From NCBI GenBank assembly GCA_026003235.1, contig BPGW01000008.1, positions 1-64,000 of the forward strand: a DNA stretch of 64,000 bases. Direction: 5' to 3'. The notes beneath the pieces were generated by a model that saw nothing but the letters and a program-made list of their open reading frames with translations, was not told the DNA's origin and did no database searches. Made by a program: the position numbers and the translations under genes. This DNA is from Bacteroidia bacterium. Lineage in GTDB: Bacteria > Bacteroidota > Bacteroidia > SpSt-205. Positions 3,099 to 62,542 of the stretch are shown piece by piece; position 1 is the stretch's first letter; every line of letters starts with the position of its first letter.

Positions 3099-3106
3099 CA
3101 AATGTG
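3099..3106 (-). promoter_or_regulatory. Putative -7 box (CACATTTG) for ruvA
   Basis: One mismatch to TAnnTTTG on the minus strand, ending 6 nt before the ruvA ATG at 3092. It is supported mainly by its position, which matches the many exact boxes elsewhere in the window. Confidence 0.45.
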
Positions 3107-3120
3107 CGACCGAAAAGTCA

Positions 3121-3128
3121 TACCTTTG
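3121..3128 (+). promoter_or_regulatory. Putative -7 box (TACCTTTG) for the coiled-coil lipoprotein
   Basis: An exact Bacteroidota -7 consensus. A TTG at 3096-3098 could serve as the -33 element. The ATG is 18 nt downstream, so this unit would have a short leader, longer than most others here. Confidence 0.7.
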
Positions 3129-3146
3129 CGCCCAAACACACACACT

Positions 3147-3677
3147 ATGCGGTACGCACAGTACATCGCAGGAGCAGCCCTTCTGTGGGCTGTAGTGGCC
3201 TGCCAAAGCGGGCCTAGCAAGGAGTTCATCAATCAGGTTACGACCGAGCTGGGTGACCTCAAGGGTGCGGCAGACAAGCTCAATGCCTTAAAGAACGAGG
3301 TAGCGAGCCTGCAGGATCCCTTCGCAGCGCTCAAGCAGGAGCTGGGCAAAACCTGGACGGACAAGGTGGAAAAGGACAAAGAGCTGAGCGCCAAGATCGC
3401 TTCTCTGGAAAAAGAGGCCAAGGATCTTGCTGGGGAGGTGCCTGAAGTGGAGAACCAGCTCAACAGTGCGCTTAGTGAAGCCCAAGCTTTTGTAGATGGG
3501 TTGGCTACCCAAAAGAAGAATGAGGAGGAGCTGAAAAAAGAGTGGGAGGCAATAAAGGGCAAAGTCTCCGAAATGATGAAGGAGTTAGACGAGCTCCAGG
3601 GCAAGCTGACTAACTTCAAAACTAACCTCCAGGCCCAGCAAGAAGCCATCAAGTCTAAGTACGCTCCTAAGAAGTAA
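3147..3677 (+). CDS. Coiled-coil lipoprotein of unknown function
   Basis: A 176-residue protein with a lipoprotein signal peptide (MRYAQYIAGAALLWAVVAC, lipidated Cys at residue 19). Almost all the remainder is charged and heptad-like, rich in K, E, L and A, so it is predicted to be one long alpha-helical coiled coil anchored in a membrane on the periplasmic or outer side. The start at 3147 is chosen because it begins the signal peptide; the open frame extends upstream without family support. The gene stands alone between a promoter and a strong terminator. It superficially resembles Lpp-like or OmpH-like periplasmic spacer proteins, but no specific family is recognised. Confidence 0.75.
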   Translation: MRYAQYIAGAALLWAVVACQSGPSKEFINQVTTELGDLKGAADKLNALKNEVASLQDPFAALKQELGKTWTDKVEKDKELSAKIASLEKEAKDLAGEVPEVENQLNSALSEAQAFVDGLATQKKNEEELKKEWEAIKGKVSEMMKELDELQGKLTNFKTNLQAQQEAIKSKYAPKK

Positions 3678-3702
3678 GCTCTTCCGTCAGCGGAGCGTAA
3701 GG

Positions 3703-3736
3703 AAGGCGCAGGTCCTTGAGCCTGCGCCTTTTTTCT
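3703..3736 (+). terminator. Intrinsic terminator after the coiled-coil lipoprotein
   Basis: A perfect 10-bp stem AAGGCGCAGG / CCTGCGCCTT (3703-3712 and 3721-3730) with an 8-nt loop, followed by a run of six T residues. Confidence 0.9.
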
Positions 3737-3744
3737 TAACCTTG
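3737..3744 (+). promoter_or_regulatory. Putative -7 box (TAACCTTG) for the exopolysaccharide operon
   Basis: One mismatch to TAnnTTTG, directly after the terminator T-tract and ending 6 nt before the ATG at 3751. This is the same spacing as the exact boxes in the window. Confidence 0.4.
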
Positions 3745-3750
3745 CAGGGG

Positions 3751-4524: not shown

Positions 4525-4527
4525 CCT

Positions 4528-6888
4528 ATGCGCGTTCAGCAAGAGTGGGATTTTCGGAGAATCCTGATTGTGCTGAGTCGGCAGTGGTGGTGGCCTGCTC
4601 TCTCTTTGGTTTTTGCGGCTTTCACGGCGTGGGCCTACTTACGGTATACGGAAGCTACGTACCAGACTACCGCCGTAGTGCAAGTCAACTTGACCCAAAT
4701 GGTAGGGGGTTTCCAAGCGCAAAACGCCGGCCAAGGTTTTTTCCCCATGGAGATGCTGACCGACGCATACCTTGAGTTGTGGAGTCGGTATGACCTGATT
4801 GCTCAGGTTGTTGAGCAGCTTAAGCTCAACTATGAGGTATACTCAGTAGGCAAAGTAGGCCGAAGTTTGGTTTTTCCTCATCCTTTTGAAATGACCTTCA
4901 GTTCCCCGAGGGCAGAGACTTTATTTTGGCAGGCAGGTAAGGTAAGGGTTATCTTTCAGGCAGAAAACAAGGTGGAAGTGTGGCGCGGGGAAGATAAGGT
5001 GGCTTCGGGCAAAGTAGGCCAGTGGATGACCTTGCCTGGCGCTTTGTCTGCCCACGTGAAGATAGACTGTGAGCCTACCTGCCCAAGTGAGGGCGTGTAT
5101 GAAGTGGCGCTCTTTTCTCCCCAAGCCGCGGCGTTCGCTTGGCAGCGTCGCGTAAGCGTCATCCCTAAGCGGGGGCTCACCATTTTACAGGTGGGTGTAA
5201 CCGATATTTCGCCGGTGAGAGCGGCTCGCTTTCTTACTACCCTCATTGAGCGGGCGCGCGAACATGAGCGAAACATTCGCCAAGTCCAATATACTAAGGC
5301 ACTAAGCTACATAGATACGCTTATAAGCTTCTTTCAAAACCAGCTTCTCATTGCCCAGGATACTTTGTATAAGGTGGAAATCAAAGGTGATGTTTTATTC
5401 ATGGAAGCAAGAAAAGGCAGAGCGTTGAGCTTATACCAGGATGTAGAAAAAATAGATAAGAATCTGCTCTTAAAAAACCTGAATGTTATCTCAGAAAGGC
5501 TTCAAAGTGTGGTGGATACTTTGAGGAAAGATCCAGGAGCTGAGGTAGGGCCTCTTCCTGGTGGGACTTTGCCCGAGCTGCAGGGGCCGCTTGCCGATCT
5601 GAATCAACTCTTAGAGCAGCGCCTTCGGCTTCTCAAGATCTATCAACCTCGCTCTCCTATTCTACTGACGCATAATCAACTTGTTCTTTCCCGTTTAATG
5701 GCTTTATTGCAGCTGGTGGAGCAAAGGAAACAAGAGCTGCTTTACGAGCTTAGCGCCCTTCGCCAAAATTTCCTGCAGGGTAGAGCGCAGTTATACAGGG
5801 ATGTACTCTCTGAGAGGCAAATCGCTCTTTTGCAAGAAGACATCGAGCTTCGTCGGGAGGTTTACAAGAGCCTCCTCGAGAAAAAAATGCAAATAGCCAT
5901 TGAACGAGAAGCGGTACTCTCGGCCATCCAGGTTACACAGCCGCCGCTGGTTCCCTCAACGCCTTTGTATCCCAATCCTCTGCAAGTCTATGTGCTTTTT
6001 CTCGTGGGGGGGGGTATTATAGGGGTAGGCGGGGTACTGGTGCGCCACCTTGTTGAGCAGAAAGTGTCCTATCGTGTGGATCTTGAGCAGATAGCTCCAG
6101 TGCCGATCCTGGGGGAGCTGCCCTACCAGCGTCCGAAGTCCCAAGCGGGGTTTTCTCTTGCGCCCTTGCAGCTGGAGGTTCTGCGGGCCTTACGGGGAGC
6201 GCTGGGATTCGTATGGGAAAGCGAAAAGCCCCGCCTCTTGCTGGTCACCTCCACGGTGAGCGGGGAAGGAAAGACGTTTGTAGCTCGCAGCTTAGCTTAT
6301 GTGCATGCGCTGGCGGGATATCGGGTGCTCCTAATAGATGCCGATTTACGGCGAGCTTCGCTTTCTCAGGGTGTTGGGGTGCGCGAACGAGGGCTATCGC
6401 TTATTTTGGCCCGGTTGGTGGACATAGAACGCTATGAAGAGCTCTTAGTGCCCTTGGAGCAATCGGGGTTATTCCTCTTGCCGGCTGGGCCCAGCGCCCC
6501 GAATCCTCCGGAATTGTTGGAAACGCCAGCTTTCTCCCATCTTATAGCCGAAGCCAGTCGTACTTTTGATTATATCGTGATTGACACCGCCCCTGTGGGC
6601 ATTGTGCCCGATACCCTCGCGATTTTGCATCACCTGGAAAATGCCGTTACGCTGTATGTATTCCGGGCCGATTACTCGCGAATCCCTTTTCTTTCGCATC
6701 TGGCGGACATCGTTGAGAAACATCACCTGAAGAAAGTCTACCTTCTCTTCAATGGCACCCGGCTATCTCGCCCTCGGTATGGGTACGGGTACGGCTATGG
6801 CTACTATGGGGAAAGCTACGCTCGTAAGTACTACCGCAGCGGCTCCACCAGCTTCTGGGAGCGGGTTCGCGAATGGATTCCCGTCTGA
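4528..6888 (+). CDS. Polysaccharide co-polymerase with BY-kinase domain (Wzc-like)
   Basis: A 786-residue inner-membrane protein controlling polysaccharide chain length and export. An N-terminal transmembrane helix (about 16-34) leads into a periplasmic Wzz/GNVR-type region with long coiled coils (about 230-460), then a second transmembrane helix (about 490-512), then a cytoplasmic bacterial tyrosine kinase domain. That domain has Walker A SGEGKTFVARSL (about 578), Walker A' VLLIDADLRR (about 600) and Walker B YIVIDTAPVG (about 683). The C-terminus has a tyrosine cluster (RYGYGYGYGYYGE, about 750-765, then more Tyr), the usual autophosphorylation tail. It lies directly downstream of the export lipoprotein and overlaps the phosphatase gene by 16 bases, a complete kinase/phosphatase module. 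Confidence 0.93.
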   Translation: MRVQQEWDFRRILIVLSRQWWWPALSLVFAAFTAWAYLRYTEATYQTTAVVQVNLTQMVGGFQAQNAGQGFFPMEMLTDAYLELWSRYDLIAQVVEQLKLNYEVYSVGKVGRSLVFPHPFEMTFSSPRAETLFWQAGKVRVIFQAENKVEVWRGEDKVASGKVGQWMTLPGALSAHVKIDCEPTCPSEGVYEVALFSPQAAAFAWQRRVSVIPKRGLTILQVGVTDISPVRAARFLTTLIERAREHERNIRQVQYTKALSYIDTLISFFQNQLLIAQDTLYKVEIKGDVLFMEARKGRALSLYQDVEKIDKNLLLKNLNVISERLQSVVDTLRKDPGAEVGPLPGGTLPELQGPLADLNQLLEQRLRLLKIYQPRSPILLTHNQLVLSRLMALLQLVEQRKQELLYELSALRQNFLQGRAQLYRDVLSERQIALLQEDIELRREVYKSLLEKKMQIAIEREAVLSAIQVTQPPLVPSTPLYPNPLQVYVLFLVGGGIIGVGGVLVRHLVEQKVSYRVDLEQIAPVPILGELPYQRPKSQAGFSLAPLQLEVLRALRGALGFVWESEKPRLLLVTSTVSGEGKTFVARSLAYVHALAGYRVLLIDADLRRASLSQGVGVRERGLSLILARLVDIERYEELLVPLEQSGLFLLPAGPSAPNPPELLETPAFSHLIAEASRTFDYIVIDTAPVGIVPDTLAILHHLENAVTLYVFRADYSRIPFLSHLADIVEKHHLKKVYLLFNGTRLSRPRYGYGYGYGYYGESYARKYYRSGSTSFWERVREWIPV

Positions 6889-9719: not shown

Positions 9720-9725
9720 AGTATC

Positions 9726-9733
9726 TACCTTTG
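9726..9733 (+). promoter_or_regulatory. Putative -7 box (TACCTTTG) for the TonB-dependent receptor
   Basis: An exact consensus ending 4 nt before the ATG at 9738, so the transcript would begin at or next to the start codon. Confidence 0.7.
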
Positions 9734-9737
9734 TGAC

Positions 9738-12739: not shown

Positions 12740-12767
12740 AGGGGATGCTTTTTCGGGGGTAAAGCGA

Positions 12768-12804
12768 AGAGGCGGAGGCTATAGGGCCTCCGCCTCTGGT
12801 TTTT
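12768..12804 (+). terminator. Intrinsic terminator after the TonB receptor
   Basis: A 12-bp perfect stem AGAGGCGGAGGC / GCCTCCGCCTCT (12768-12779, 12786-12797) followed by GGTTTTT. It lies between convergent genes. Confidence 0.85.
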
Positions 12805-12822
12805 GAGAGGTAGCTGGGGTTT

Positions 12823-13908: not shown

Positions 13909-13915
13909 AGGTTAT

Positions 13916-15220: not shown

Positions 15221-15228
15221 CAAATATG
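15221..15228 (-). promoter_or_regulatory. Putative -7 box (CATATTTG) for metK-fbaB
   Basis: One mismatch to TAnnTTTG on the minus strand, ending 5 nt before the metK ATG at 15215. The same C-for-T change is seen at two other boxes (3099 and 60329). Confidence 0.45.
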
Positions 15229-17078: not shown

Positions 17079-17947
17079 GGTTTGACCTGCAAAAGCTCCA
17101 GCAGCCGTTCCAGGTCTTCGGTGGAGCTGAAGTGGATGCGCAGTTCGCCTTGGCCGTTGGGCCGAGCCCGGATCTGCACTGGTGCGTGGAAGCGGTAGGT
17201 GAGGGTTTTAGCCAGCTCGTTGAGGTGCACTTCCCACTCGGAGAGGGGGCGCTGGGCTTTCTGGGCTTTTTGTGCCGGCGAAGGGGTGGTATAAGCCTGG
17301 ACAAGCGCTTCCACTTGGCGGACGGTAAGGCCTTTTTCCTGGATTTCCCGAAAGATCTGGAGCTGCAGGTCGGGCGAGTCAAGGGTGAGGAGCGGGCGGG
17401 CGTGCCCTTCGGTGAGGGTGCCCTCTTTGAGGGCTTTTTGGATTTCGGGCGGCAGGCGCAAGAGCCGTAGGGTATTGGCGATGGTGGGCCGGCTTTTGCC
17501 CACATAGCGGGCTACTTCTTCCTGGGAAAGGCCGCACTCTTCCATGAGGCGCTTATAGGCCAGGGCCAGTTCAATGGGGTTGAGGTTGGAACGCTGGACA
17601 TTTTCCACGAGGGCAAAGGCCAGCATTTCAGTGGAATCGGCCGTCCGCACGTAAGCGGGGAGATGGGTGAGGCCCGCTTTTTTCGCGGCTCGCCAGCGCC
17701 TCTCGCCGGCAATGAGCTGGTAGGTCTGCCCTACTTGCCTGACGGTGATGGGCTGAATCAGACCATGCTGGCGAATAGACTCGGCCAGCTCTTGCAGTTC
17801 CTCTTCGGGAAAATCCAGGCGCGGCTGATAAGGGTTAGGCTCAATGGCTTCTATGGGGATCTCTTGGACAGCGTGGGAGCTCTGGACGGCCTCTTCGTCA
17901 ACGGGTAGGATAGCGCCCAGCCCTCGCCCTAAGCCCCGGGGTTTCAT
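17075..17947 (-). CDS. parB: Chromosome partitioning protein ParB
   Basis: A 290-residue CTP-dependent DNA clamp that loads at parS sites and works with ParA in chromosome segregation. It shows the N-terminal ParA-contacting region ([12 protein letters not shown]), the ParB/Srx CTP-binding domain ([22 protein letters not shown], the [12 protein letters not shown] signature), a helix-turn-helix DNA-binding domain ([27 protein letters not shown]) and a C-terminal dimerisation domain. It lies downstream of parA with a 4-base overlap. No parS-like palindrome was found nearby. Confidence 0.96.
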
Positions 17948-18738: not shown

Positions 18739-18746
18739 CAAAGCTA
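18739..18746 (-). promoter_or_regulatory. Putative -7 box (TAGCTTTG) for parAB
   Basis: An exact TAnnTTTG on the minus strand, ending 9 nt before the parA ATG at 18729. Confidence 0.65.
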
Positions 18747-21498: not shown

Positions 21499-22400
21499 AC
21501 GGTTTCGGTGACTTTGAGGAAGATGTCTTTTATGGTAGGGAGCTTTTCCGTAAAGAAGCGGATGTCGGTTTGGCGCAGGACCGCTTCAAGGAAGGGGCGG
21601 ATGGGCTGGTCGGGGGGGATCCGCAGCAGGGCGCGGTGGGAACCCAAGGCCTGCCAAGTTGTGCCTTCAGGCCAGGTTATTTCTGCGATAGGCAGCGTCG
21701 TCTCTATCTCGTAGGTGTGGTCCCAGTAGGTTCTGCGGAGGGTGGGGACGTCGCCGGCCAGGCGCAGCACCCCCTTGTGAATAAGCAGCACATGCTGGCA
21801 CAGGAGGTCTACCTGTTCAAGGCGGTGGGTGGAAAGCAGGATCAGCAGGCCTTTTTGGGCTTCTTCTTGGAGTAGGGCCTCTATGTCTGCGGCGACGAGG
21901 GGGTCCAGACCGGAGAACGGCTCATCCAGCAGCAGAGCCCAAGGTTGGCCGGCCAGCGCCAGGATAAGTTGCACTTTCTGTTGCATGCCTTTGGAGAGGG
22001 TGCGGGCTTGCCGGTCAAGCCAGGGCGTGTCCAGCCTTTTGGCCCAGCGCTGGATCTCCGCTTCCGCCTCGGGGCGAGAGAGGCCTTTCAGCTGGAGGAG
22101 ATACAGAAGCTGGCTTCGGGCGGTCATGCGAGGGTACAGCCCTCGTTCCTCGGGCATGTAGCCAAAGTGCTGTCGGATGGCAGCGTGCATGGGTTCGTCG
22201 CCGTAGCGGATTTCCCCTGCGTCAGGTAAAGCCAACCCCATGATGAGCCGTAGGAGGGTCGTTTTACCTGAACCGTTTGGACCCAATAGGCCTACCACCT
22301 TTCCTGGAGGGATTGTGGTGGAGAGGGCTGAGAGGGCCTGTACAGGACCTTGAGGCCCCCGGAAGGCCTTGCTCACACCCGCGATCACAAGGGAGCGCAC
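21495..22400 (-). CDS. ABC transporter ATP-binding protein (NatA-like)
   Basis: A 301-residue ATPase partner of the permease downstream. Walker A is GPNGSGKTTLL, Q-loop FGYMPEERGLYP, signature TLSKGMQQKVQL, Walker B WALLLDEPFSGLD and H-loop LLSTHRLEQ. A C-terminal extension of about 80 residues (ending LPTIKDIFLKVTETV) corresponds to the domain common in NatA-type exporters. The coding regions overlap by 4 bases. A TACCTTTG box ends 4 nt before the ATG, back to back with the promoter of the divergent CPBP gene. Confidence 0.92.
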   Translation of the reverse strand: MRSLVIAGVSKAFRGPQGPVQALSALSTTIPPGKVVGLLGPNGSGKTTLLRLIMGLALPDAGEIRYGDEPMHAAIRQHFGYMPEERGLYPRMTARSQLLYLLQLKGLSRPEAEAEIQRWAKRLDTPWLDRQARTLSKGMQQKVQLILALAGQPWALLLDEPFSGLDPLVAADIEALLQEEAQKGLLILLSTHRLEQVDLLCQHVLLIHKGVLRLAGDVPTLRRTYWDHTYEIETTLPIAEITWPEGTTWQALGSHRALLRIPPDQPIRPFLEAVLRQTDIRFFTEKLPTIKDIFLKVTETV

Positions 22401-22404
22401 CGCC

Positions 22405-22412
22405 CAAAGGTA
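22405..22412 (-). promoter_or_regulatory. Putative -7 box (TACCTTTG) for the ABC exporter
   Basis: An exact consensus on the minus strand, ending 4 nt before the ATG at 22400. The divergent box for the CPBP gene begins 12 bases away. Confidence 0.7.
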
Positions 22413-22424
22413 AGCCTAATCTCA

Positions 22425-22432
22425 TACCTTTG
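22425..22432 (+). promoter_or_regulatory. Putative -7 box (TACCTTTG) for the CPBP protease and cdsA
   Basis: An exact consensus ending 4 nt before the GTG at 22437. The position helped choose that GTG as the start codon. Confidence 0.7.
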
Positions 22433-25442: not shown

Positions 25443-25450
25443 TATCTTTG
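25443..25450 (+). promoter_or_regulatory. Putative -7 box (TATCTTTG) for the hypothetical gene at 25,457
   Basis: An exact TAnnTTTG ending 6 nt before the ATG at 25457. Confidence 0.65.
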
Positions 25451-27335: not shown

Positions 27336-27343
27336 TATATTTG
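27336..27343 (+). promoter_or_regulatory. Putative -7 box (TATATTTG) for the small ORF / YbjN unit
   Basis: An exact TAnnTTTG ending 6 nt before an ATG (27350) that opens a 34-codon frame, and 135 nt before the YbjN start at 27479. Confidence 0.55.
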
Positions 27344-29742: not shown

Positions 29743-30471
29743 TCAGCGGATCAGTTGAAACTTTTCTCCGAGGTACACGCGGCGCACTTCGGGGTCGGTG
29801 GCCAGCGTTTCGGCATCGCCTTCTTTGAGGAGGCGGCCTTCGTAGAGCAGGTAAGCGCGGCGGGTAATGCTGAGGGTCTCGTGCACATTGTGGTCGGTGA
29901 TGAGGATGCCGATCCCCCGCTGGGCCAGCCGTACAATGATGGCTTGGATTTCCTCCACGGCAATGGGGTCCACGCCAGCGAAAGGTTCATCCAGCAACAA
30001 ATAGCGGGGTTCGGTGGCTAAGGCGCGGGCGATCTCGGTTCGGCGCCGCTCCCCCCCCGACAGCTGCTGGCCCAATGATTTGCGCACGTGGGTCAGGCTG
30101 AACTCTTCCAGGAGCGCTTCCACGCGGGCGCGAATGTCCTTTTTTGAGAGGCCTCCCCGCAATTCCAGCACGGTGCGAAGGTTGTCTTCCACGCTCATGC
30201 GCCGAAAGACGGACGCTTCCTGGGGTAAGTACCCGATACCTCGCTGAGCTCGGCGGTACATAGGCAGCGGGGTAATCCGTTCCTGGCCCAGGTAAATTTC
30301 GCCTTCATCGGGCCGGATGAACCCCACAATCATGTAAAAAGTGGTGGTTTTCCCTGCGCCGTTGGGGCCAAGGAGCCCTACGATCTCGCCCGGCTCCAGG
30401 TAAAGCGAGACTTGATCCACCACCCGCCGCTGCCCGTAGGTTTTCCGAAGCTTTTCAGCCCTTAGTTTCAT
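29743..30471 (-). CDS. lptB: LPS export ABC transporter ATP-binding protein LptB
   Basis: A 242-residue ATPase that powers lipopolysaccharide transport to the outer membrane through LptFGC. Walker [19 protein letters not shown]-loop [19 protein letters not shown], signature [15 protein letters not shown], Walker [14 protein letters not shown] and [22 protein letters not shown] are all LptB-type. The length (242) is exact for the family. It overlaps the OlsF-like gene by 4 bases and precedes GH3. No lptF, lptG or lptC gene is present in the window. Confidence 0.95.
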
Positions 30472-32309
30472 GGCTGCGAAGAGGGTTGGACTTGATGATA
30501 GGCCAGATAGCGGGCATAGCCGTCTTCACCCATGTACTTGCGCATTTGGTCGGGATCGGCTTTGAGGAGGTCGGTAACCATCAAGATGTCCAGCGCATCA
30601 CTGAAAGAATGATCAATATTGAAAGCTAAGATGCGAGCACCCATTCGTAGGTAGTGCTTGATGAGGATGGGTATTTTGATGTGGCTGCCTTCCAGCTCTT
30701 CAATCAGGTCTTGTACGTCTTGGAGGCTTTGCACAGAGATGGTGTAGTAGTAGTCGCGGTACTTTTTGGGTATCTCGTAGGGTGTGCGGCCGCGGATTTC
30801 AGCCATAAGGTCGGCTTCTTTGTGTTTATCCTCCAGGAAAGCCAGCAAGAGCGCTTTAGAGAGGTCAGGGAAGTGTGCGCTGATGCTGACAGGTCCCAGG
30901 AGGAAGCGATAGTGGGGATACTGGAGGAGGTACTGGCCTATGCCTCTCCATAGGAGGTAGAGCGGCGCGTAAGAGCGCTGGTACTTTTCCTGGATGAAGG
31001 CGCGGCCCAGTTCCAGGGCGGGGTGGATTTCGTGGAAAAGCCGGCGCTTCATGTGGAAGAGGGAGTAGGTATAGAGCCCTCGCAGGCCCAGGGTGCGCAG
31101 GATTTCATCACAACGGCCGATCCGATAAGCCCCTGCAAGGGTCTCATCGGTGGTGTGGTAAAGAACCAAGTGGTCATACCATTGGTCGTAGGGGTCGTTG
31201 TCGCGGCTTTTGCCAGTGCCTTCGCCTACAGCTCGGAAGGTCATTTCCCGCAAGCGTCCGAGTTCTGCCAGGAGGAGGGGTTGCTGACTGCCCCGGAAGT
31301 AATACACGACCCACTCACCCTGGGCAAGGAGCTTTTGGGAGGCCGGCAGGGCCTCCAGCTGGGCCCGCAGAAGGTGGGGGGGGAGCGGTTCGGCCAGGGG
31401 TTCGGGATGAGCGGGTTCTGGGCTTGACCGAACCCGGCTTTTGCGCAGAAGCAGCCGCTTTCGCCGGCTTTCCACGCTCTCGCCGAGCAGGTAGGTCCGG
31501 GTGCGCAGGTATTCGGTGATCTGTTCGGCCGTGCCGAGGGAAGCTAACTTCTCATAGGGCAGAAGCCGCCCCATGCGGTAATGCACCTTACGGGAGGCGG
31601 GGTTCACGAACTCCCGAATCAGCAGGCCGGTGCGCAGCCGAGCATCAAGGAGACCGGCCAGGTGAAACAGCCAGCTATTGGTGCCATGAAAATACAAGGG
31701 CAGAGCGGTAGCCTGGCTTTGCAGGATGAGCTTGCCGACAAAGGGGTTCCATTGGGGTTCTCGGATGCGGCCTGTGCGCAGGTCCAGGCTGGCCACCTCA
31801 CCCGAGGGAAAGAGGCCGAGCAGCCCTCCTTCTTTCAGGTACTGGATAGCCTGTTTGATGGGCTGCAGGTTGAATTGCCGTGCGCCCGTACCTCCGAAGG
31901 GGTCCACCAGCAGGAGGGTGTCTTTCACTTCTGTCACGCGCTCCAGGAAGAGGTTCGCCAGGATGCGGAAGTCTTTGCGGATCTCGCTCAGGAAAAGCAC
32001 CAGGAAGATAGCCTCTATGCCGCCGAAGGGGTGGTTGCACACCACGAGGAGGGGTCCGGTGTGGGCGCGCAGGGGGGCCATGTCGGCTTCGGGGGGGAGC
32101 GCATAGCGCACGCCAATGAGCTCTAAGACTCGCCGAGCAAACTCCCCCGGACTGGCCCCGCTGTCCTCGCACAATGCATAAAAACGGTTGAGTTTTTCTA
32201 TGCCCAGGAGCTTTTCTACCCAGGGTCCGGCCAGGCGGTAAACCACGCGCTGCCACGGTGTGTCCAGGATTTCTTCCAGCTTGAGCAGGGGGCGCCGATA
32301 CCGGGCCAT
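30468..32309 (-). CDS. Bifunctional lysophospholipid acyltransferase / OlsB-like N-acyltransferase (OlsF-type fusion)
   Basis: A 613-residue two-domain protein. The N-terminal half (about 1-290) is a PlsC-type O-acyltransferase with [11 protein letters not shown] in place of NHxxxxD, the [16 protein letters not shown] segment and [11 protein letters not shown]. The C-terminal half (about 320-600) is a GNAT-like OlsB domain with [49 protein letters not shown] and [12 protein letters not shown]. Such fusions, or adjacent gene pairs, make ornithine or glycine N-acyl lipids in Bacteroidota; which amino acid is used here cannot be told. The catalytic Asp of the acyltransferase motif is replaced by Glu. 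It is the first gene of a unit with lptB, GH3 and DUF4296. Confidence 0.85.
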
Positions 32310-32314: not shown

Positions 32315-32322
32315 CAAAGGTA
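32315..32322 (-). promoter_or_regulatory. Putative -7 box (TACCTTTG) for the OlsF-LptB-GH3 operon
   Basis: An exact consensus on the minus strand, ending 5 nt before the ATG at 32309. Confidence 0.7.
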
Positions 32323-32353: not shown

Positions 32354-32361
32354 TATATTTG
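32354..32361 (+). promoter_or_regulatory. Putative -7 box (TATATTTG) for the secreted-protein remnant at 32,369
   Basis: An exact TAnnTTTG ending 7 nt before the ATG at 32369. Confidence 0.65.
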
Positions 32362-33333: not shown

Positions 33334-33341
33334 TACCTTTG
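33334..33341 (+). promoter_or_regulatory. Putative -7 box (TACCTTTG) for the tRNA operon
   Basis: An exact consensus ending 10 nt before the first base of tRNA-Tyr. Confidence 0.65.
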
Positions 33342-33351: not shown

Positions 33352-33434
33352 GGGGAGTTGCCGGAGCGGTCAAACGGGCCTGACTGTAAATCAGGTGGCA
33401 CTTGCCTACGGAGGTTCGAATCCTCCACTCCCCA
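33352..33434 (+). tRNA. tRNA-Tyr (anticodon GTA)
   Basis: An 83-nt class II tRNA. Acceptor arm GGGGAGT / ACTCCCC with discriminator A, an anticodon arm around CTGTAAA (GTA), a long variable arm and the T arm GGAGGTTCGAATCCTCC. The CCA end is not encoded. It lies 4 bases before tRNA-Gly; a Tyr-Gly pair is common in Bacteroidota. Confidence 0.95.
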
Positions 33435-37296: not shown

Positions 37297-37929
37297 CTAT
37301 TGGGAGCTGCCCTTGGCTAAGATTTCCTTGGCTTCCTTCATGGTGATGCGCACGCCGTCTTTGAAGGGCACGACCCACGCATCGCGGATGCCCAGCCTCT
37401 TGAGGTCCTTCTGGAAGGCCTCCGCCAACTCAAGGCTACGAAAGCGGCCTACGGTATAGCGGTTGATGTCGCCCAGCGCTTCGGCCTCAAAGAAGGGGTT
37501 GTCTTGGGCATACTTGCGCATGTCAAAGAGCCGAAAAGCCCCTATCTGGACCTTGAACACCAGGCCTGGCATCACATCAAGGCGCGCTTGTTTTTTCTCC
37601 GCTTCGTAGGCGGCTTTGAGCCGGATGATCTCGCTTTGCAGCGAGTCAAACGAATACTGCCGGGCTCGCAGCTGATCTTCAAGTTGGGCCAGCTGCTCAG
37701 AGAGTTCGCGATTGCGTCGCTGAAGCTCTTCTATCTGGCGGTCCCGATCTTGCACTTGTTTTTGATAACTTTCCTCACGGGCTTTGAGCGCTAAGGGATT
37801 TTTGACGTACTGCTTGGCTTTCTTTTTCCACTCTTTTTTTAGCTGTTTTTGGGGGTCGCCGCCTTTTTTCTTTTGCTGAGCCCACCCCAAAGGAAAGGAG
37901 AGGAGGGCGATACCAAGTAGCCATCGCAT
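37297..37929 (-). CDS. Secreted coiled-coil protein with SPOR-like domain
   Basis: A 210-residue protein with a signal peptide (MRWLLGIALLSFPLGWAQ), a Lys/Glu/Gln-rich coiled coil (about 25-115, KAREESYQKQVQDRDRQI and following) and a C-terminal SPOR-like domain (about 125-205). In that domain FKVQIGAFRLFD is the first strand, INRYTVGRFRSLELAEAFQK the middle and IRDAWVVPFKDGVRITMKEA the end. SPOR domains bind denuded peptidoglycan, so a periplasmic cell-wall role is likely. It is the first gene of a pair with the metallophosphoesterase. The start at 37929 is fixed by the signal peptide and the promoter box 5 nt upstream. Confidence 0.82.
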   Translation of the reverse strand: MRWLLGIALLSFPLGWAQQKKKGGDPQKQLKKEWKKKAKQYVKNPLALKAREESYQKQVQDRDRQIEELQRRNRELSEQLAQLEDQLRARQYSFDSLQSEIIRLKAAYEAEKKQARLDVMPGLVFKVQIGAFRLFDMRKYAQDNPFFEAEALGDINRYTVGRFRSLELAEAFQKDLKRLGIRDAWVVPFKDGVRITMKEAKEILAKGSSQ

Positions 37930-37934: not shown

Positions 37935-37942
37935 CAAATGTA
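37935..37942 (-). promoter_or_regulatory. Putative -7 box (TACATTTG) for the SPOR gene
   Basis: An exact TAnnTTTG on the minus strand, ending 5 nt before the ATG at 37929. Only 2 bases separate it from the oppositely oriented box at 37945. Confidence 0.7.
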
Positions 37943-37944
37943 AG

Positions 37945-37952
37945 TAGATTTG
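37945..37952 (+). promoter_or_regulatory. Putative -7 box (TAGATTTG) for the FG-GAP protein gene
   Basis: An exact TAnnTTTG ending 6 nt before the ATG at 37959, back to back with the box of the divergent SPOR gene. Confidence 0.7.
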
Positions 37953-40842: not shown

Positions 40843-40850
40843 CAAAGTTA
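40843..40850 (-). promoter_or_regulatory. Putative -7 box (TAACTTTG) for the gene at 40,838
   Basis: An exact TAnnTTTG on the minus strand, ending 4 nt before the ATG. Confidence 0.65.
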
Positions 40851-40915: not shown

Positions 40916-40923
40916 TACCTTTG
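40916..40923 (+). promoter_or_regulatory. Putative -7 box (TACCTTTG) for SUI1-rdgB
   Basis: An exact consensus ending only 3 nt before the ATG at 40927, the tightest spacing of an exact box in the window. Confidence 0.7.
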
Positions 40924-43714: not shown

Positions 43715-43722
43715 CAAAATTA
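43715..43722 (-). promoter_or_regulatory. Putative -7 box (TAATTTTG) for the large secreted protein
   Basis: An exact TAnnTTTG on the minus strand, ending 5 nt before the GTG at 43709. One base separates it from the gldE box. Confidence 0.65.
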
Positions 43723-43723
43723 T

Positions 43724-43731
43724 TACCTTTG
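43724..43731 (+). promoter_or_regulatory. Putative -7 box (TACCTTTG) for gldE-gldD-tatD
   Basis: An exact consensus ending 8 nt before the proposed TTG start at 43740; it lies 1 base from the divergent box. Confidence 0.65.
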
Positions 43732-47700: not shown

Positions 47701-47708
47701 CAAAGGTA
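47701..47708 (-). promoter_or_regulatory. Putative -7 box (TACCTTTG) for the barrel gene and pcm
   Basis: An exact consensus on the minus strand, ending 4 nt before the ATG at 47696. Confidence 0.7.
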
Positions 47709-48377: not shown

Positions 48378-48386
48378 GCGCAAATA

Positions 48387-49386
48387 TCAGGTAAGAAGGC
48401 GAGGTTCCGGGAAGGTCTCGGGGTTGAGGCGGAGGCGGGTCCTTGAAAAGCCAATCTAAAAAGCCGACAAACGAGGCCAGGTCGGTGGCTAAAAGCAGGG
48501 CGGTGGCGCTTAGCAGAGTCAGAGGATGTAGAGGGGGGCGAGTCAGCGGAGGCCGCGGATAACGGCCGAAGCGCCGGATCCGCCGAAAGGCCCGAAACCC
48601 AGCTCCCCCCATCGTGAGCAGCGGAAAGGCCAGAGCCCCCCAAGCGCCGCTCCAGGTAACGGCTCCTACGGTGAGAGCAGCATACAGACCGTACACGCGC
48701 AAAAGGCCCCCGTACCAGTCTTTAGGCTTGCCAGATAGGAGGTTATGGCGGCCGTAGAGACGGACCTTTCTCAGGAGGGAACCCCAACTTTCCGCAGGTT
48801 CCCAGTAGGTGATAGCTCTGGGCTCAAAGTGCACGCGGATCCCTAACGCTTCCACCCGCTGGCGAAAGTCGCTGTCTTCGCGGGCTCGCCAAGGCCGAAA
48901 TCCACCCACCGCTTCCCAGAGAGCTTTAGGCAGAGCGGTGCAAGCTACAGGGGGAGCATTAAAAGGGTGCCCAGCTATCTCGTGGGTGTAGGGAGGGATC
49001 AGCACTAAAAAAGTAAGTTGGGAAGGAAGGCTTTGGGGACGAACCTCCAAGTGGCCTTGGACCAAGTCCGCTTTGTTTTGGAGGAGGGGGGTAACCAGGT
49101 GCGCTAAGCACGTTGGGGCTGCCCACATGCTGGCATCCCAAAAGGCCAAGAAGGGATACTTGGCGTGGGCGGCGCCGACGTTTCGGGCTTGGCCGGGGTA
49201 GGCCCTATCTACCCGCACCACCCGCGCGCCCTGCGCTTCAGCGAGGGCGGCGGTGGAGTCGGTAGAGCCCGCGTCTACCACGATGATTTCGGCGGGGGGT
49301 TGGGTCTGCGCCTGGAGGCTTGCCAGCAGCCGCCCCAGGTTGGAAGCTTCGTTCCGAGCCGGGATAATGACGCTCACGGGGAGCAT
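48387..49386 (-). CDS. Glycosyltransferase family 2 (probable frameshift near 48,442)
   Basis: A GT-A fold glycosyltransferase starting at ATG 49386 (MLPVSVIIPARNEASNLGRL). It shows VDAGSTDSTAAL, the DXD-like WDASMWA region, FRPWRAREDSDFRQRVE (the acceptor-side ED) and two C-terminal hydrophobic helices (LYAALTVGAVTWSGAWGALA and LTLLSATALLLATDLASFVG). As written, the frame runs on to 48145, through the rpe gene. Dropping one G at about 48,442 instead gives FLDWLFKTRLRLNPETFPEP and a stop at 48387, 332 residues, ending 10 bases before rpe. I consider the repaired form the real one. The start overlaps the GT4 gene by 13 bases. It resembles membrane-associated GT2 enzymes of polysaccharide or lipid glycosylation. 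Confidence 0.78.
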
Positions 49387-50548: not shown

Positions 50549-50556
50549 CAAAAGTA
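50549..50556 (-). promoter_or_regulatory. Putative -7 box (TACTTTTG) for the GT4-GT2-rpe unit
   Basis: An exact TAnnTTTG on the minus strand, ending 8 nt before the ATG at 50540. Confidence 0.6.
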
Positions 50557-50565: not shown

Positions 50566-50573
50566 TATATTTG
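50566..50573 (+). promoter_or_regulatory. Putative -7 box (TATATTTG) for the pnt operon
   Basis: An exact TAnnTTTG ending 7 nt before the pntAA ATG at 50581. Confidence 0.65.
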
Positions 50574-50580: not shown

Positions 50581-51696
50581 ATGAAAGTAGGGGTGCTGCG
50601 CGAGCGAAGGGAAGGGGAGCGTCGGGTGGCTCTTACGCCGGAGCAGGTGGTGCGACTGAAGGGATGGGGCTTTACGGTGTATGTAGAAGCAGGGGCGGGC
50701 GAGGGCGCTTTCTTCCCTGACGAGGCCTACCGCGAAGCGGGGGCTGAACTCCTTCCTTCTGGGGCGGCGGTCGTCCAGGCCAGTGACCTGATCCTACGGC
50801 TCCACAGCCCTTCTGGGGAAGAGATTCGGGCTTTTCCTTCGGGCAAGACGCTGGTAGGGCTGCTTCAGGCTTGGCGGCACCCCGAGGCCATCGCTGCGCT
50901 GCAAGAGAAAGGCTGGACCGTCTTCGCGCTGGAGCGCCTGCCTCGCATCACGCGCGCGCAAAGCATGGATGTGCTCTCGTCTATGGCGGCGCTGGCGGGC
51001 TATAAGGCGGTGTTGATGGCGGCGGATCATTTTGTTCGGGTCTTTCCGATGCTCACGACGGCGGCGGGTACGCTGGTGCCGGCTCGGGTGCTGGTGATTG
51101 GAGCGGGGGTGGCTGGACTCCAAGCGATTGCGACCGCTCGCCGCTTAGGCGCGCAGGTGGAGGGGTACGACATTCGTCCGGCCGCCAAAGAGCAAGTAGA
51201 AAGCCTGGGCGCTAAGTTTCTCCCCCTTACCTTGGACGGTTCGGGTGAAGGGACAGGGGGCTATGCGCGCGAGCTTACCCCTGAGGAACAAGCTCGTCAG
51301 CGTGAAGCCCTGGCCCAGTATGTGGCCCGAGCCGATGTGGTGATTACGACGGCGGCGGTACCGGGCCGCCCGGCTCCGAAGCTCCTCACCGCAGCTATGC
51401 GCAAAGCGATGCGACCCGGCTCCGTCATCGTGGATTTGGCAGCCGAAACAGGCGGCAACTGCGAAGAATCGGTTCCAGGCCAAACCCAAGTGTTAGACGG
51501 GGTAACCCTCCTTGCGCCCGTCAACCTCCCCGCTACCTTACCCGTACACGCCTCCCAGATGCTGGCACGTAACTTTACAGAGTTCTTGGGTCTTTTCCGG
51601 CAAAAGGAAGGCTCCCCTGCGCTTCATACCCGGGATGAGATTCTCCAAGCTACCTGCCTTGTGTGGCAGGGCGAGCCTATAACCCAAACCGCATAA
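50581..51696 (+). CDS. pntAA: NAD(P) transhydrogenase alpha subunit, part 1 (NAD-binding)
   Basis: A 371-residue soluble domain I of the proton-translocating transhydrogenase, which binds NAD(H). Family marks are the N-terminal MKVGVLRERREGERRVALTP, SMDVLSSMAALAGYKAVLMA, the Rossmann motif VLVIGAGVAGLQAIATARRL followed by YDIRPAAKEQVESLGAKFLP, and VDLAAETGGNCE. The enzyme is split into three genes (alpha1, alpha2, beta), a common bacterial form. The ATG at 50581 follows the promoter box by 7 nt. pntAB begins 4 bases after the stop codon. Confidence 0.95.
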   Translation: MKVGVLRERREGERRVALTPEQVVRLKGWGFTVYVEAGAGEGAFFPDEAYREAGAELLPSGAAVVQASDLILRLHSPSGEEIRAFPSGKTLVGLLQAWRHPEAIAALQEKGWTVFALERLPRITRAQSMDVLSSMAALAGYKAVLMAADHFVRVFPMLTTAAGTLVPARVLVIGAGVAGLQAIATARRLGAQVEGYDIRPAAKEQVESLGAKFLPLTLDGSGEGTGGYARELTPEEQARQREALAQYVARADVVITTAAVPGRPAPKLLTAAMRKAMRPGSVIVDLAAETGGNCEESVPGQTQVLDGVTLLAPVNLPATLPVHASQMLARNFTEFLGLFRQKEGSPALHTRDEILQATCLVWQGEPITQTA

Positions 51697-55678: not shown

Positions 55679-55684
55679 AATCCT

Positions 55685-55692
55685 TACTTTAG
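55685..55692 (+). promoter_or_regulatory. Possible -7 box variant (TACTTTAG) for porD-aroK
   Basis: One mismatch to TAnnTTTG (TTAG for TTTG), ending 4 nt before the ATG at 55697. The gene could equally be read from the upstream operon. Confidence 0.35.
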
Positions 55693-55696
55693 GGGT

Positions 55697-57919: not shown

Positions 57920-57920
57920 A

Positions 57921-59933: not shown

Positions 59934-59934
59934 A

Positions 59935-60285: not shown

Positions 60286-60289
60286 GCAG

Positions 60290-60297
60290 CAAAGGTA
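60290..60297 (-). promoter_or_regulatory. Putative -7 box (TACCTTTG) for secG
   Basis: An exact consensus on the minus strand, ending 4 nt before the ATG at 60285. Confidence 0.7.
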
Positions 60298-60328
60298 GCA
60301 CATGAGGAGGACTTCTGCCGAAAAGGGC

Positions 60329-60336
60329 CACCTTTG
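60329..60336 (+). promoter_or_regulatory. Putative -7 box variant (CACCTTTG) for the RidA gene
   Basis: One mismatch (C for T at position 1) to TAnnTTTG, ending 5 nt before the ATG at 60342. Confidence 0.5.
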
Positions 60337-60341
60337 CAAGG

Positions 60342-60803
60342 ATGAAAACCTGGATAGCTGGGGGCCTTGTGGCCGGGGCTGCCCTGTGGGGTCAGCCATT
60401 GGGAGAAAAGTCCTATACTCGCACCGTGGAGCGCCTCTCGGTTCCAGGTATTACGCCCGTAGGGCCCTACAGCCCAGCCGTACGCGTGGGGCCCTGGCTT
60501 TTCATCTCAGGACAAATCGCCCTCCGACCGGATGGCTCTGTGGAGACCAGTTCGCTGGAAAAAGAAGTCCAGCAGGTGCTGGCTAACCTGCAAGCTGTGC
60601 TGGCTGCCGCCCACGCCCGCCCCGAGCAGCTCGTCAAAGTCACCATTTTCCTCACGGACATGGCGTTTTTCCCCCTGGTGAACGAGCACTATGGTCGGCT
60701 TTTCCCGCAGGGTCAGTATCCAGCCCGCGAGACGGTGGCCGTGCACGCCCTGCCCAAAGGCGCCCGCATAGAAATCTCGGGCATAGCCTACCTCGGCGAA
60801 TGA
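60342..60803 (+). CDS. RidA family protein with a signal peptide
   Basis: A 153-residue protein. Residues about 30-150 are a RidA (YjgF/YER057c) fold: GPYSPAVRVGPWLFISGQIA, then EVQQVLANLQAVLAAAHARP and LVKVTIFLTDMAFFPLVNEH, and ETVAVHALPKGARIEISGIA, where the Arg of PKGARIEI binds the substrate carboxylate. RidA hydrolyses reactive imines and enamines in the cytoplasm. Unusually, a hydrophobic N-terminus (MKTWIAGGLVAGAALWGQP) looks like a signal peptide, predicting a periplasmic or secreted version. The start is fixed by a promoter box 5 nt upstream. It overlaps the SGNH-LysM gene by 4 bases. Confidence 0.88.
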   Translation: MKTWIAGGLVAGAALWGQPLGEKSYTRTVERLSVPGITPVGPYSPAVRVGPWLFISGQIALRPDGSVETSSLEKEVQQVLANLQAVLAAAHARPEQLVKVTIFLTDMAFFPLVNEHYGRLFPQGQYPARETVAVHALPKGARIEISGIAYLGE

Positions 60804-62506
60804 AGAGAGGAGGCTTACTGCTGCTTGGGCTTTTGACGGCTTGCTGGGGGCAGGACCCTCCTCCCCCTCCGAAGTGGGCTATCCCGGAGTCTGTAGAGGT
60901 CTGGAGCGTACCCGATACGCACCTGCCCTTCGTGAACGAAGCGGGGAATCGGCTCTTTCTGGCGGCGCACTTGCGTCCTGTATGGGCCCTCCTGCGAGAC
61001 AATACCCGCAAGGTCCGCGTGCTGCACATAGGGGACTCCCACCTCCAGGGCCAGGTGCAAGGCCGCGAGCTTCGTCGGCGGTTGTATGCGGTCTGGGGGC
61101 CTGGCGGACGAGGGTACGGGTTTCCTTACGCCATCGCAGGCACCAGTTCGCCTTACGACTGCACTTCGCTGGGGCGGGGGCAGTGGCTCTGGGCCCGCAG
61201 CGTCCATCTCCAACCCGCTCTACCCCTGGGCGTGACGGGCATGGCCGTAGGCACCTACGACCCTTCAGCCGAATGGGAAGTGCGCTGGGTGCCCCCTTGG
61301 GCTCCGGCGGCCGATTCCGGCGCGCAGCTCCTCTGCCTGACCCGCACCCTGCGAGCGGGAATCCGCCTTGAACTGGCCTTTAGCGACACCGCCCAGCCTA
61401 TCCGCCTGGATCTGCCAGCCGGCTATGCAAAGGTCTCCTGCCGGGTTCCGCAGCCCCTTGCTCTCCTGCGGGGCCGCTTCCGCTGGGAAGGCGAGGACTC
61501 CCTGGGCTATGGCGAGCTCCACGGCTTTTTCCTGGAAGAAGGCACCCGAGGCCTCTCCTGGCACACCCTGGGCGTGAACGGAGCCCGACTTTCCGACTGG
61601 GCCCAACTCCCCCTTCTCAAGGAGAGCCTGCGCTTGCTGGCGCCGGACTTGGTGGTGTTAGACCTGGGAACGAACGACCTTCACGCAGCTGAAGCGTCGC
61701 TGCCCGCTTTCCGTCAGGCCCTGGAAGCGGCCATAGACACGATTCGGGCAGCCTTACCCCAAGCGGTCATTCTGGTCACGACGCCGCAGGACTTTTACCG
61801 GCGCATGCGGCCTCTGCCTTGGCTGGCTCAGGCGGCTCAGCTTGTGCGATGGGTTGCCGCCCGCAAAGCCGTAGCCGTATGGGATGCCCACACGGTGCTC
61901 GGGAGCATGCGAGACTGGCGGCTGGCCGGCCTGGCTCTGCCAGATATGGTTCACTTGAACCCCACCGGCTACGCCCTCAAAGGGCAGTACTTTGCGCAGG
62001 CTTTCCTGCGCAGTTATGTGGACTTTCTGCGGGATAGCCTGCCTGACCCCGCGCAGGAGGCCCGAGAAGCGCTTGCGCTGCCGGAGAGCCTGTGGCGTCC
62101 TGCCCCCCCTCCGGTTCCCCTCACCCCCTCTTTGTCTCGGTTTGGCGGCGCGGGCGGGGCGCCGGCCTACGTGCCGGCCCGGCCCCTCTACCTGTACCAT
62201 AAGGTCAGGCCCGGAGAAACGCTGGGACAAATCGCTCAGCGGTATGGGGTGTCGGTGGCTGCGATCCGCCAAGCCAACGGCCTGCGAAGCTCCCTGATCC
62301 GGGTGGGGCAGACCCTTCGCATACCGGCCCAGCGGGCTTCAGGCGGGGCTGCCTCTCCCGCTGTCAGGTACCACACCGTGCGGACGGGAGAGTCGCTGTG
62401 GAGCATTGCGCAGCGCTACGGCATCTCCGTAGAAGCGCTCTGCCGCGCCAACGGCCTTACCCCCCGTAGCGCCATCCACCCCGGCCAGCGCTTGCGCGTG
62501 CCGTGA
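60800..62506 (+). CDS. Secreted SGNH hydrolase with two C-terminal LysM domains
   Basis: A 568-residue protein. Signal peptide MKRGGLLLLGLLTACWGQ. The SGNH/GDSL esterase domain (about 70-410) has block I VRVLHIGDSHLQGQ (catalytic Ser in GDS), block III VLDLGTNDLH and block V LPDMVHLNPTGYALKG (Asp and His of the triad). A Pro-rich linker leads to two LysM motifs, HKVRPGETLGQIAQRYGVS (about 470) and HTVRTGESLWSIAQRYGIS (about 532), which bind peptidoglycan or chitin. It is probably a cell-wall-bound esterase, perhaps removing acetyl groups from peptidoglycan or a glycan. It overlaps RidA by 4 bases. Confidence 0.88.
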   Translation: MKRGGLLLLGLLTACWGQDPPPPPKWAIPESVEVWSVPDTHLPFVNEAGNRLFLAAHLRPVWALLRDNTRKVRVLHIGDSHLQGQVQGRELRRRLYAVWGPGGRGYGFPYAIAGTSSPYDCTSLGRGQWLWARSVHLQPALPLGVTGMAVGTYDPSAEWEVRWVPPWAPAADSGAQLLCLTRTLRAGIRLELAFSDTAQPIRLDLPAGYAKVSCRVPQPLALLRGRFRWEGEDSLGYGELHGFFLEEGTRGLSWHTLGVNGARLSDWAQLPLLKESLRLLAPDLVVLDLGTNDLHAAEASLPAFRQALEAAIDTIRAALPQAVILVTTPQDFYRRMRPLPWLAQAAQLVRWVAARKAVAVWDAHTVLGSMRDWRLAGLALPDMVHLNPTGYALKGQYFAQAFLRSYVDFLRDSLPDPAQEAREALALPESLWRPAPPPVPLTPSLSRFGGAGGAPAYVPARPLYLYHKVRPGETLGQIAQRYGVSVAAIRQANGLRSSLIRVGQTLRIPAQRASGGAASPAVRYHTVRTGESLWSIAQRYGISVEALCRANGLTPRSAIHPGQRLRVP

Positions 62507-62534
62507 AATTTAGACTTGTCAGGGAGACTTTGCT

Positions 62535-62542
62535 TACCTTTG
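62535..62542 (+). promoter_or_regulatory. Putative -7 box (TACCTTTG) for the SBBP-repeat protein
   Basis: An exact consensus 16 nt before the ATG at 62559; a TTG at 62516-62518 may be part of the -33 element. Confidence 0.65.

Follow-up and report, generated by a model that had tools for sequence, protein, structure and literature searches.

Where does transcription begin when a promoter-like box lies almost against the start codon? The question is raised by a 64,000-nt stretch of contig BPGW01000008.1 (assembly GCA_026003235.1) from a Bacteroidia bacterium, hereafter the window, in which copies of the box TAnnTTTG end 3–9 nt before the start codons of many genes. An earlier note on this DNA had proposed that most of the mRNAs should be leaderless. 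The box, its spacing, its conservation, the start codons that it precedes and its identity as a promoter can be read from the sequence itself, and by that measure the spacing signal is real, genome-wide and family-wide. Leaderless initiation of the box-led genes is the best reading of this signal: promoters of sigma-ABfr, the name used for the Bacteroidota sigma-A (PMC6847099, PMC7366714), placed next to the start codon would give leaders of 0–5 nt for most box-bearing leading genes (defined below). We put the probability of this explanation as a whole, including the assignment of the box as the −7 element read by this housekeeping sigma factor, at roughly 0.86.

The window has a G+C content of 59% and contains 34 exact TAnnTTTG boxes, against a mean of 19.1 (standard deviation 4.2) in shuffled sequences, and none of 100 shuffles reached 34. 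With the gap defined as the number of nucleotides between the last G of the box and the start codon, 15 of the 34 boxes are followed by an ATG at a gap of 3–9 nt; in 100 simulated sequences this number averaged 1.5 and never exceeded 5. All 17 exact boxes that the earlier note had placed 3–9 nt before start codons were read back, with gaps of 3 (1 site), 4 (6), 5 (3), 6 (2), 7 (2), 8 (2) and 9 nt (1), and so were its six one-base variants, each of which differs at one fixed base. The start codons at the exact sites are ATG (13), GTG (3; 22400, 22437 and 43709) and TTG (1; 43740). Starts predicted from nothing but coding statistics agree with 17 of the 23 claimed starts and disagree at 22400, 22437, 32369, 50581, 60285 and 3751; among these, 50581 (PntA-like) and 60285 (SecG) are backed by family profiles beginning at residue 1 and residue 7, respectively.

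The same spacing recurs throughout the 2.06-Mb, 82%-complete genome that contains the window (G000). The pattern TACCTTTGN{3,8}ATG occurs 140 times, against 6 for the reversed pattern, and TAHCTTTGN{4}ATG 108 times, against 0 for its control. After the 232 exact boxes in 464 kb of this genome, ATG stands at gap 4 in 48 cases and at gaps 5, 6, 7, 8 and 9 in 15, 12, 13, 10 and 7, over a background of ∼2.8 per position at gaps 20–59, so that the genome-wide peak that the earlier note had expected at 3–9 nt is present, and sharp at 4 nt. G304, a genome of the same genus, has ATG at gap 4 after 47 of 337 boxes in 400 kb, with a background of about 4. The long-gap pattern (N15–44) was found 108 times in G000 against 27 in the control, and includes leadered promoters and second ATGs.

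Gene-level analysis covered 464 kb of G000 (400 kb fetched plus the window) and 400 kb of G304, in which a purpose-made gene caller, using coding statistics only and blind to the box, predicted 372 and 292 genes. An exact box at gap 3–9 precedes 88 of the 372 box-blind starts of G000, compared with 0 of 1380 internal in-frame ATGs and 2 of 2140 and 1 of 441 out-of-frame ATGs. By context, such a box is found before 43 of 108 divergent genes, 8 of 70 genes separated by 40 nt or more from the gene upstream on the same strand, and 37 of 190 genes closer than that. A box of their own, near the end of the upstream gene or within it, precedes these 37 tightly spaced genes, so that internal promoters may subdivide many operons. 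In keeping with the lack of Shine-Dalgarno (SD) sequences noted earlier, SD cores are just slightly above chance (38 of 370 genes, 24 in one shuffle). Among start codons, UUG is used by 1 of 176 box-led genes and 36 of 486 other genes, and GUG by 25 of 176 and 61 of 486.

The consensus of the box is TA(C/T/A)(C/T/A)TTTG, and across 88 boxes G makes up ∼8% and ∼2% of the two middle positions, being nearly absent from the fourth. The −7 element of Flavobacterium johnsoniae has the same sequence and likewise avoids G at two middle positions (PMC6847099). No signal for a −33 TTTG element was seen in the box-aligned composition; this element is much less evident in F. johnsoniae also, with no clear −33 motif (PMC6847099), and its lack here is therefore not treated as defining. 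For 241 of 434 candidates in F. johnsoniae, transcription starts 4 or 5 nt downstream of the box (PMC6847099), and together with the modal gap of 4 this means that the modal mRNA would begin with the start codon. In the 81 gap-4 genes of G000 and G304 the start codon begins on the fifth nucleotide after the box, and at gaps 5, 6 and 7 that nucleotide is a purine in 58% (n = 31), 71% (n = 14) and 73% (n = 22) of genes.

We propose that the position of the box relative to the start codon has become fixed in the family and that RNA polymerase would start ∼4 nt after the box, at the start codon's first letter with the modal gap of 4 and 1–5 nt before it with gaps of 5–9. Gaps of 3–9 nt with a mode of 4 place the promoter near enough to the start codon for an expected leader below ∼8–10 nt, the range taken for leaderless genes; strictly, gaps of 5–9 nt imply leaders of ∼1–5 nt rather than none, which qualifies the word leaderless in the earlier note. 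Most operon-leading genes with a recognisable box, and some intra-operon genes, would give mRNAs with leaders of 0–5 nt, and translation would then begin on a 5′-end AUG or GUG with no ribosome-binding element before it. Initiation probably follows the known leaderless route, through initiation factor 2 (IF2) and initiator tRNA (PMC10783764), on 30S or 70S particles, and the ribosome in question would have an intact anti-SD that is probably still hidden by ribosomal protein bS21. From this arrangement we infer both the exact first nucleotide and the translation route.

Whether most mRNAs are of this kind depends on which genes are counted. Leading genes were defined as those that are divergent or at least 40 nt from their same-strand neighbour. 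Where a leading gene has an exact box within 100 nt, the nearest one lies at 3–9 nt in 51 of 68 cases (G000) and 65 of 89 (G304), and for this set the word ‘most’ of the earlier note is supported. Over all leading genes, with one mismatch allowed, a box at 3–9 nt precedes 79 of 178 (G000) and 80 of 160 (G304), which after background correction is a leaderless-type share of 42% and 48%. To call this type the default is fair for recognisable promoters.

Several observations tell against our explanation. About half of the leading genes lack a box at 3–9 nt even when one mismatch is allowed. The nearest exact box lies at 10–99 nt in 17 of 68 (G000) and 24 of 89 (G304) of the leading genes that have one within 100 nt, so leadered promoters coexist with the others; two such boxes in the window, both TACCTTTG on the plus strand, lie at 3121..3128 (gap 18 to ATG 3147) and 62535..62542 (gap 16 to ATG 62559). 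The one-mismatch excess in G304 is 36.5 at 10–39 nt beside 77.0 at 3–9 nt. The purine at the fifth position falls to 55% at gap 8 (n = 11) and 38% at gap 9 (n = 8), and this register is modest altogether: neighbouring spacer positions are equally purine-rich, and it is thus just a hint at the start site. Finally, some box-led genes begin away from the start of their family model (FtsX −11, NuoD +42, RsfS +16, HflK +17, an EmrB-like transporter +10 and MsrA +7 residues). In a weaker form of the explanation, leaderless promoters would be real but a large minority, and most mRNAs would be leadered from unseen promoters, such as weak boxes or those of extracytoplasmic function (ECF) sigma factors. 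We consider this unlikely, if well short of negligible. The corrected shares of 42% and 48% favour it; the shares of 51/68 and 65/89 among genes with an exact box speak against it, as does the excess at 10–39 nt in G000, which is small (10.3 vs 75.6 at 3–9 nt), that of G304 being larger.

A conserved translation signal or auxiliary site in mRNAs that start further upstream could also hold the box at a fixed distance from the start codon. Translation initiation in F. johnsoniae is tuned by bases 5′ of the start codon (PMC6847099), and the boxes before 37 of 190 tightly spaced genes of G000 would fit such a role. However, among the tRNA genes of the fetched stretches, 3 of 5 in G000 and 6 of 8 in G304 (9 of 13 altogether) also have an exact box 4–10 nt ahead of them; in the window, the box at 33334..33341 on the plus strand lies 10 nt before the start of tRNA-Tyr at 33352 and without any start codon. 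As tRNA genes have no start codon, the box does not need one, which identifies TAnnTTTG here, as far as sequence can, as a promoter. It also precedes a larger share of divergent genes (43 of 108) than of genes within runs (37 of 190), its sequence is that of the published −7 element including the avoidance of G (PMC6847099), and the divergent starts at 37929 and 37959 are 30 nt apart, so that any other promoter would fit only inside the neighbouring gene. The box as a translation signal is rejected by its presence before tRNA genes, and the idea in its broader form is very improbable.

The start codons could also be misassigned, the true start being the next in-frame ATG or GTG and the real leaders 20–60 nt long. 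Ab initio prediction of starts is error-prone, the coding-only caller departs from the claimed start at 6 of 23 sites, and NuoD, HflK and RsfS have N-termini well ahead of their model starts. Conserved genes nevertheless keep the box beside the start. An exact box lies 7 nt before the ATG of rpsA in all 11 family loci, with the spacer CGCCCAC in 7; a box lies 4–7 nt before the ATG of rpsU, whose product begins MI(I/V)I(E/Q)PQEG, in 10 of 11 loci (with one mismatch in one locus; gaps read by eye); and secG has a box at gap 4–6 in 10 of 12 family loci. For pntA, the box is at gap 7–8 in the window and in five named close relatives, a count that leaves out two distant homologues, L005 and L006. 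In infC, GTG follows an exact box by 7–8 nt in 5 of 9 loci and a one-base variant by 5 nt in one more. Unparsed rows are kept in these totals (rpsU 1 of 11, L059; secG 2 of 12, G300 and G303; infC 3 of 9, G301 being misparsed and G305 and G300 having no open reading frame (ORF)), and for G298 and G299 secG was read off the sequence by eye. For rpsA and infC the start having a box was chosen and then compared between genomes; these starts lie 4 residues from the model start for rpsA (G000, G304 and G305) and 2 residues from it for infC (G304 and G306).

N-termini were compared with NCBIfam models for 30 random box-led genes of G000 (60–900 codons, within one fetched stretch) and 10 chosen window genes, of which 22 could be judged. 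Sixteen of these have their N-terminus no more than 6 residues from the model start: GldF, ValS, AlaS, an FAD oxidoreductase, OlsC, malate synthase, QueA, a symporter, PorE, PntA, SecG, RuvA, MetK, PorD, OlsF and ParA. Weak or partial matches were left out of the count (SusC +15, PurE +5, a metzincin +23, PRK10873 −10, OppA −1, and C-terminal or no matches). The products of rpsU, secG and pntA, with RuvA, ParA, ValS and GldF, start within 0–4 residues of the orthologue or model start. An upstream alternative start is present for 48 of the 88 box-led genes and missing for 40. The lack of boxes before internal in-frame ATGs and a peak at exactly 4 nt that is independent of gene calling also argue against misassignment, which orthologues and family models reject for the main set; as a general account it is scarcely credible, while some genes stay uncertain. 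Chance from base composition is ruled out by the shuffles, the reversed patterns and the internal ATGs.

Start-codon-adjacent boxes were also counted in other genomes. Over 296 genomes of the phylum, TACCTTTGN{4,5}ATG was found 82 times in G000 against 1 in the control, the next highest count being 39, in a 3.7-Mb genome; in 12 family genomes it ranges from 29–113 against 1–6, and in one sister-family genome it is 13 against 0. The excess of TAHCTTTGN{4}ATG over 395 genomes of the class, per Mb with rounded genome sizes, is highest in the family (24–62), followed by f86 (19–26), f67 (22–24), one genus of f7 (14–20) and one of f77 (15–19); values of 10–17 occur in single or few genomes of f84, f100, f102 and f3, most others reach a few, and the sister-family genome G296 ∼2. 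Of the leading genes that carry an exact box within 100 nt, those with the nearest at 3–9 nt number 3 of 15 in G178, 0 of 11 in G049, 0 of 1 in G033 and 3 of 22 in G041, 11 of 25 and 14 of 36 in the intermediate lineages G494 and G345, and 6 of 10 in G296. The corrected one-mismatch share of all leading genes is 1–9% in the first four, 26% in G494, 29% in G345 and 41% in G296, whose values come from a small sample of only 15 leading genes. G178 ranked third in the 296-genome count and is hence no random comparator, G033 has one box-bearing leading gene, and G045, second in that count, lay outside the gene-level comparison. In G296, rpsU and rpsA have no box at 3–9 nt and TAHCTTTGN{4}ATG is barely enriched (12 vs 7).

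On these counts the trait is graded within Bacteroidia, with the family of G000 at the top. The raised counts in f86 (G345) and f67 (G494) go with intermediate gene-level shares, while the share is low in G041 of f7; the trait may have arisen several times in the class. High G+C content as its cause is not supported, since G304 (53%), G296 (39%) and G345 (34%) show the trait partly and G178 (58%) hardly. The closest named relatives, by the protein encoded at 50581 (74–78% identity), are the entries ‘Bacteroidia bacterium’ SKYB95, SKW103, SKYB7, N1_Bin and KatS3mg025. The Katase hot spring sediment sample KatS3 was taken at 52 °C (PMC9671151); to judge by its name, KatS3mg025 would come from this sample and the family would live in hot springs.

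Parts of the translation machinery were looked for as well. The 16S rRNA tail GGATTACCTCCTTTCT keeps CCUCC; it was read in G304 only, since a 16S model search gave no match in the 13 genomes of the order and rRNA was partly N, leaving one genome with a readable 3′ tail. bS21 was found in 12 of 13 genomes, and Tyr54 is present in 9 of the 10 family sequences that could be read, the tenth stopping short of this position. There was no bS21 match in G305, which is 99% complete and of the same genus as G000; the gene was either missed, missing from the assembly, or lost. bS1 was found in 12 of 13 genomes (the miss, G297, is 66% complete) and initiation factor 3 (IF3) in 9 of 13 (the misses, G000, G302, G297 and G296, are 66–83% complete). 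The idea that losing the anti-SD, bS21, bS1 or IF3 drove the shift is not supported; with nothing obvious missing, the shift seems to lie in promoter placement.

IF3 itself appears to start with GTG beside the promoter box in five loci (L156, L158 and L162–L164), in place of the rare AUU start of the E. coli gene.

In many Flavobacteriales, rpsU has an extended SD and is regulated through ribosomes lacking bS21 (PMC9976891). Tyr54 of bS21 and the CCUCC anti-SD are kept here as there, but the box lies 4–7 nt before the rpsU AUG in 10 family genomes. A leader of a few nucleotides should leave no room for an SD, and autoregulation by bS21 could then not operate. About half of Chitinophagales and ∼80% of Cytophagales also fail the criteria for rpsU autoregulation (PMC9976891), so that lacking it is not unique.

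The kind of gene start proposed here is known, and would be reached with a different promoter in a phylum in which it is reported as rare. A close likeness is in Deinococcus-Thermus, where a core promoter element a few bp before the ORF gives leaderless mRNAs lineage-wide, for ∼30% of ORFs (PMC12340547). There the element is TANNNT and a motif for a ribosome-binding site (RBS) is also common, whereas here it is the TAnnTTTG of a divergent Bacteroidota sigma factor and there is hardly any SD; the stem ‘Bacteroid’ is absent from the main text of that study, which scanned species across bacteria. Surveys of bacteria also read a promoter-like signal ∼10–12 bp before the start as leaderless, and predict that in a fifth of bacterial species as many as 40% of transcripts are leaderless (PMC3160421, PMC9581028). 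The statement of the earlier note that leaderless starts are a minority feature of other phyla does not survive these figures if a small minority is meant, the share being >20% of genes in Actinobacteria and Deinococcus-Thermus (PMC3160421), besides the ∼30% of ORFs in Deinococcota (PMC12340547). StartLink+ has the Fibrobacteres–Chlorobi–Bacteroidetes (FCB) group using non-canonical AT-rich RBSs (PMC9581028).

Within Bacteroidota, F. johnsoniae, F. psychrophilum and B. thetaiotaomicron have the same −7 box and no SD use (PMC6847099, PMC9723704, PMC7366714), but their leaders are different: 87% exceed 10 nt in F. johnsoniae (PMC6847099), the median is 24 nt with 5.5% leaderless in F. psychrophilum (PMC9723704), and the median is 32 nt with 3.7% below 10 nt in B. 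thetaiotaomicron (PMC7366714). Leaderless or short-leader mRNAs are thus a minority of 3.7–13% in the studied members. The phylum is described as mainly SD-scarce with conserved CCUCC, leaderless mRNA being mentioned for some Flavobacteriia without CCUCC (PMC10783764). Among the matches listed in a literature search of titles and the beginnings of abstracts, no Bacteroidota lineage with predominantly leaderless genes was reported.

In the studied Bacteroidota, SD-free translation goes with ordinary leaders, and leaderless mRNAs have been discounted as its reason (PMC6847099, PMC9723704). A family with the same promoter moved onto the start codon would be a natural experiment on SD-independent initiation. 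As leaderless and leadered lineages occur in one class, with intermediates, it can be asked when and why genomes abandon leaders. The regulation of bS21 and bS1 without leaders, and whether heat or a compact genome favours leaderlessness, are also open to study. For annotation, the box would be a strong signal for correct gene starts in these metagenome-assembled genomes, one that SD-based start models would not use.

Box-led genes differ in their second codon. CGN follows the start codon in 28 of 88 box-led and 34 of 282 other genes in G000, and in 24 of 88 and 29 of 204 in G304, while AGR is not enriched (4 of 88 and 10 of 282; 1 of 88 and 6 of 204). Enrichment of CGN without AGR may reflect a signal in the nucleotides themselves, AUGCG at the 5′ end of the mRNA, and not a preference for arginine.

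Divergent leaderless-type genes of the window have outward-facing boxes 1, 2 and 12 bp apart (43715–43731, 37935–37952 and 22405–22432). G000 has 8 outward pairs within 30 bp over 464 kb, compared with 3 inward ones, and G304 has 21 over 400 kb, compared with 6; in three comparators combined the numbers are 1 and 5. At distances of 1–12 bp the two promoters overlap, and their polymerases should exclude each other. We hold tentatively, at somewhat less than even odds, a wider picture of an uncultured, apparently hot-spring Bacteroidia lineage with a leaderless default that includes the genes for bS1, bS21 and IF3 and would thereby lack SD-based control of bS21 yet keep the anti-SD, with first codons (AUG then CG) that carry a signal and divergent leaderless genes that share overlapping, mutually exclusive promoters.

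The sequence TACCTTTG is found at many of the exact −7 boxes of the window. On the plus strand it lies at 9726..9733 (gap 4 to ATG 9738), 22425..22432 (gap 4 to GTG 22437, the coding-only caller preferring 22494), 40916..40923 (gap 3 to ATG 40927) and 43724..43731 (gap 8 to TTG 43740 of a CNNM/CorC-type protein). On the minus strand it lies at 22405..22412 (gap 4 to GTG 22400; an outward pair with 22425, the coding-only caller placing the start further in), 32315..32322 (gap 5 to ATG 32309 of an OlsF-like acyltransferase), 47701..47708 (gap 4 to ATG 47696) and 60290..60297 (gap 4 to ATG 60285 of SecG, a gene missed by the coding-only caller). TATATTTG occurs twice on the plus strand, at 32354..32361 (gap 7 to ATG 32369 of a 94-aa ORF uncalled by the coding-only caller) and 50566..50573 (gap 7 to ATG 50581, PntA-like; coding-only caller, 50533).

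The remaining exact boxes on the plus strand are TATCTTTG at 25443..25450 (gap 6 to ATG 25457) and TAGATTTG at 37945..37952 (gap 6 to ATG 37959). Those on the minus strand are TAGCTTTG at 18739..18746 (gap 9 to ATG 18729, ParA), TACATTTG at 37935..37942 (gap 5 to ATG 37929, 2 bp from the opposite box at 37945), TAACTTTG at 40843..40850 (gap 4 to ATG 40838), TAATTTTG at 43715..43722 (gap 5 to GTG 43709, 1 bp from the opposite box at 43724) and TACTTTTG at 50549..50556 (gap 8 to ATG 50540, a glycosyltransferase). One-base variants on the minus strand are CACATTTG at 3099..3106 (gap 6 to ATG 3092, RuvA), CATATTTG at 15221..15228 (gap 5 to ATG 15215, MetK) and GATATTTG at 48381..48388 (gap 3 to ATG 48377); on the plus strand they are TAACCTTG at 3737..3744 (gap 6 to ATG 3751, in a gene missed by the coding-only caller), TACTTTAG at 55685..55692 (gap 4 to ATG 55697, PorD) and CACCTTTG at 60329..60336 (gap 5 to ATG 60342).

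Seventeen exact boxes of the window fall outside the earlier list, namely those at 3121, 62535, 33334, 2518 and 27336 and 12 others. At 2518, on the minus strand, the box is followed at gap 8 by an ATG that lies within the called gene 1055–2530; at 27336 an ATG follows at gap 6 but opens no ORF of 80 aa. No gene start was tied to the other 12, one of which, at 6561, has a GTG at gap 8 in frame within the gene 4528–6888.

Two products of the region deserve mention. The ORF at 50581–51696 encodes a 371-aa PntA-like protein whose match is limited to the first 365 residues of a 510-residue model, and it is probably the alpha subunit of a split transhydrogenase; a first Pfam reading as alanine dehydrogenase was dropped because NCBIfam favours PntA. 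An OlsF-like ornithine-lipid synthase is encoded at 30468–32309 of the window and an OlsC-like hydroxylase at 17109–17873 of L016, both scoring under the cut-offs of their models, and the pair probably makes hydroxylated ornithine lipids.

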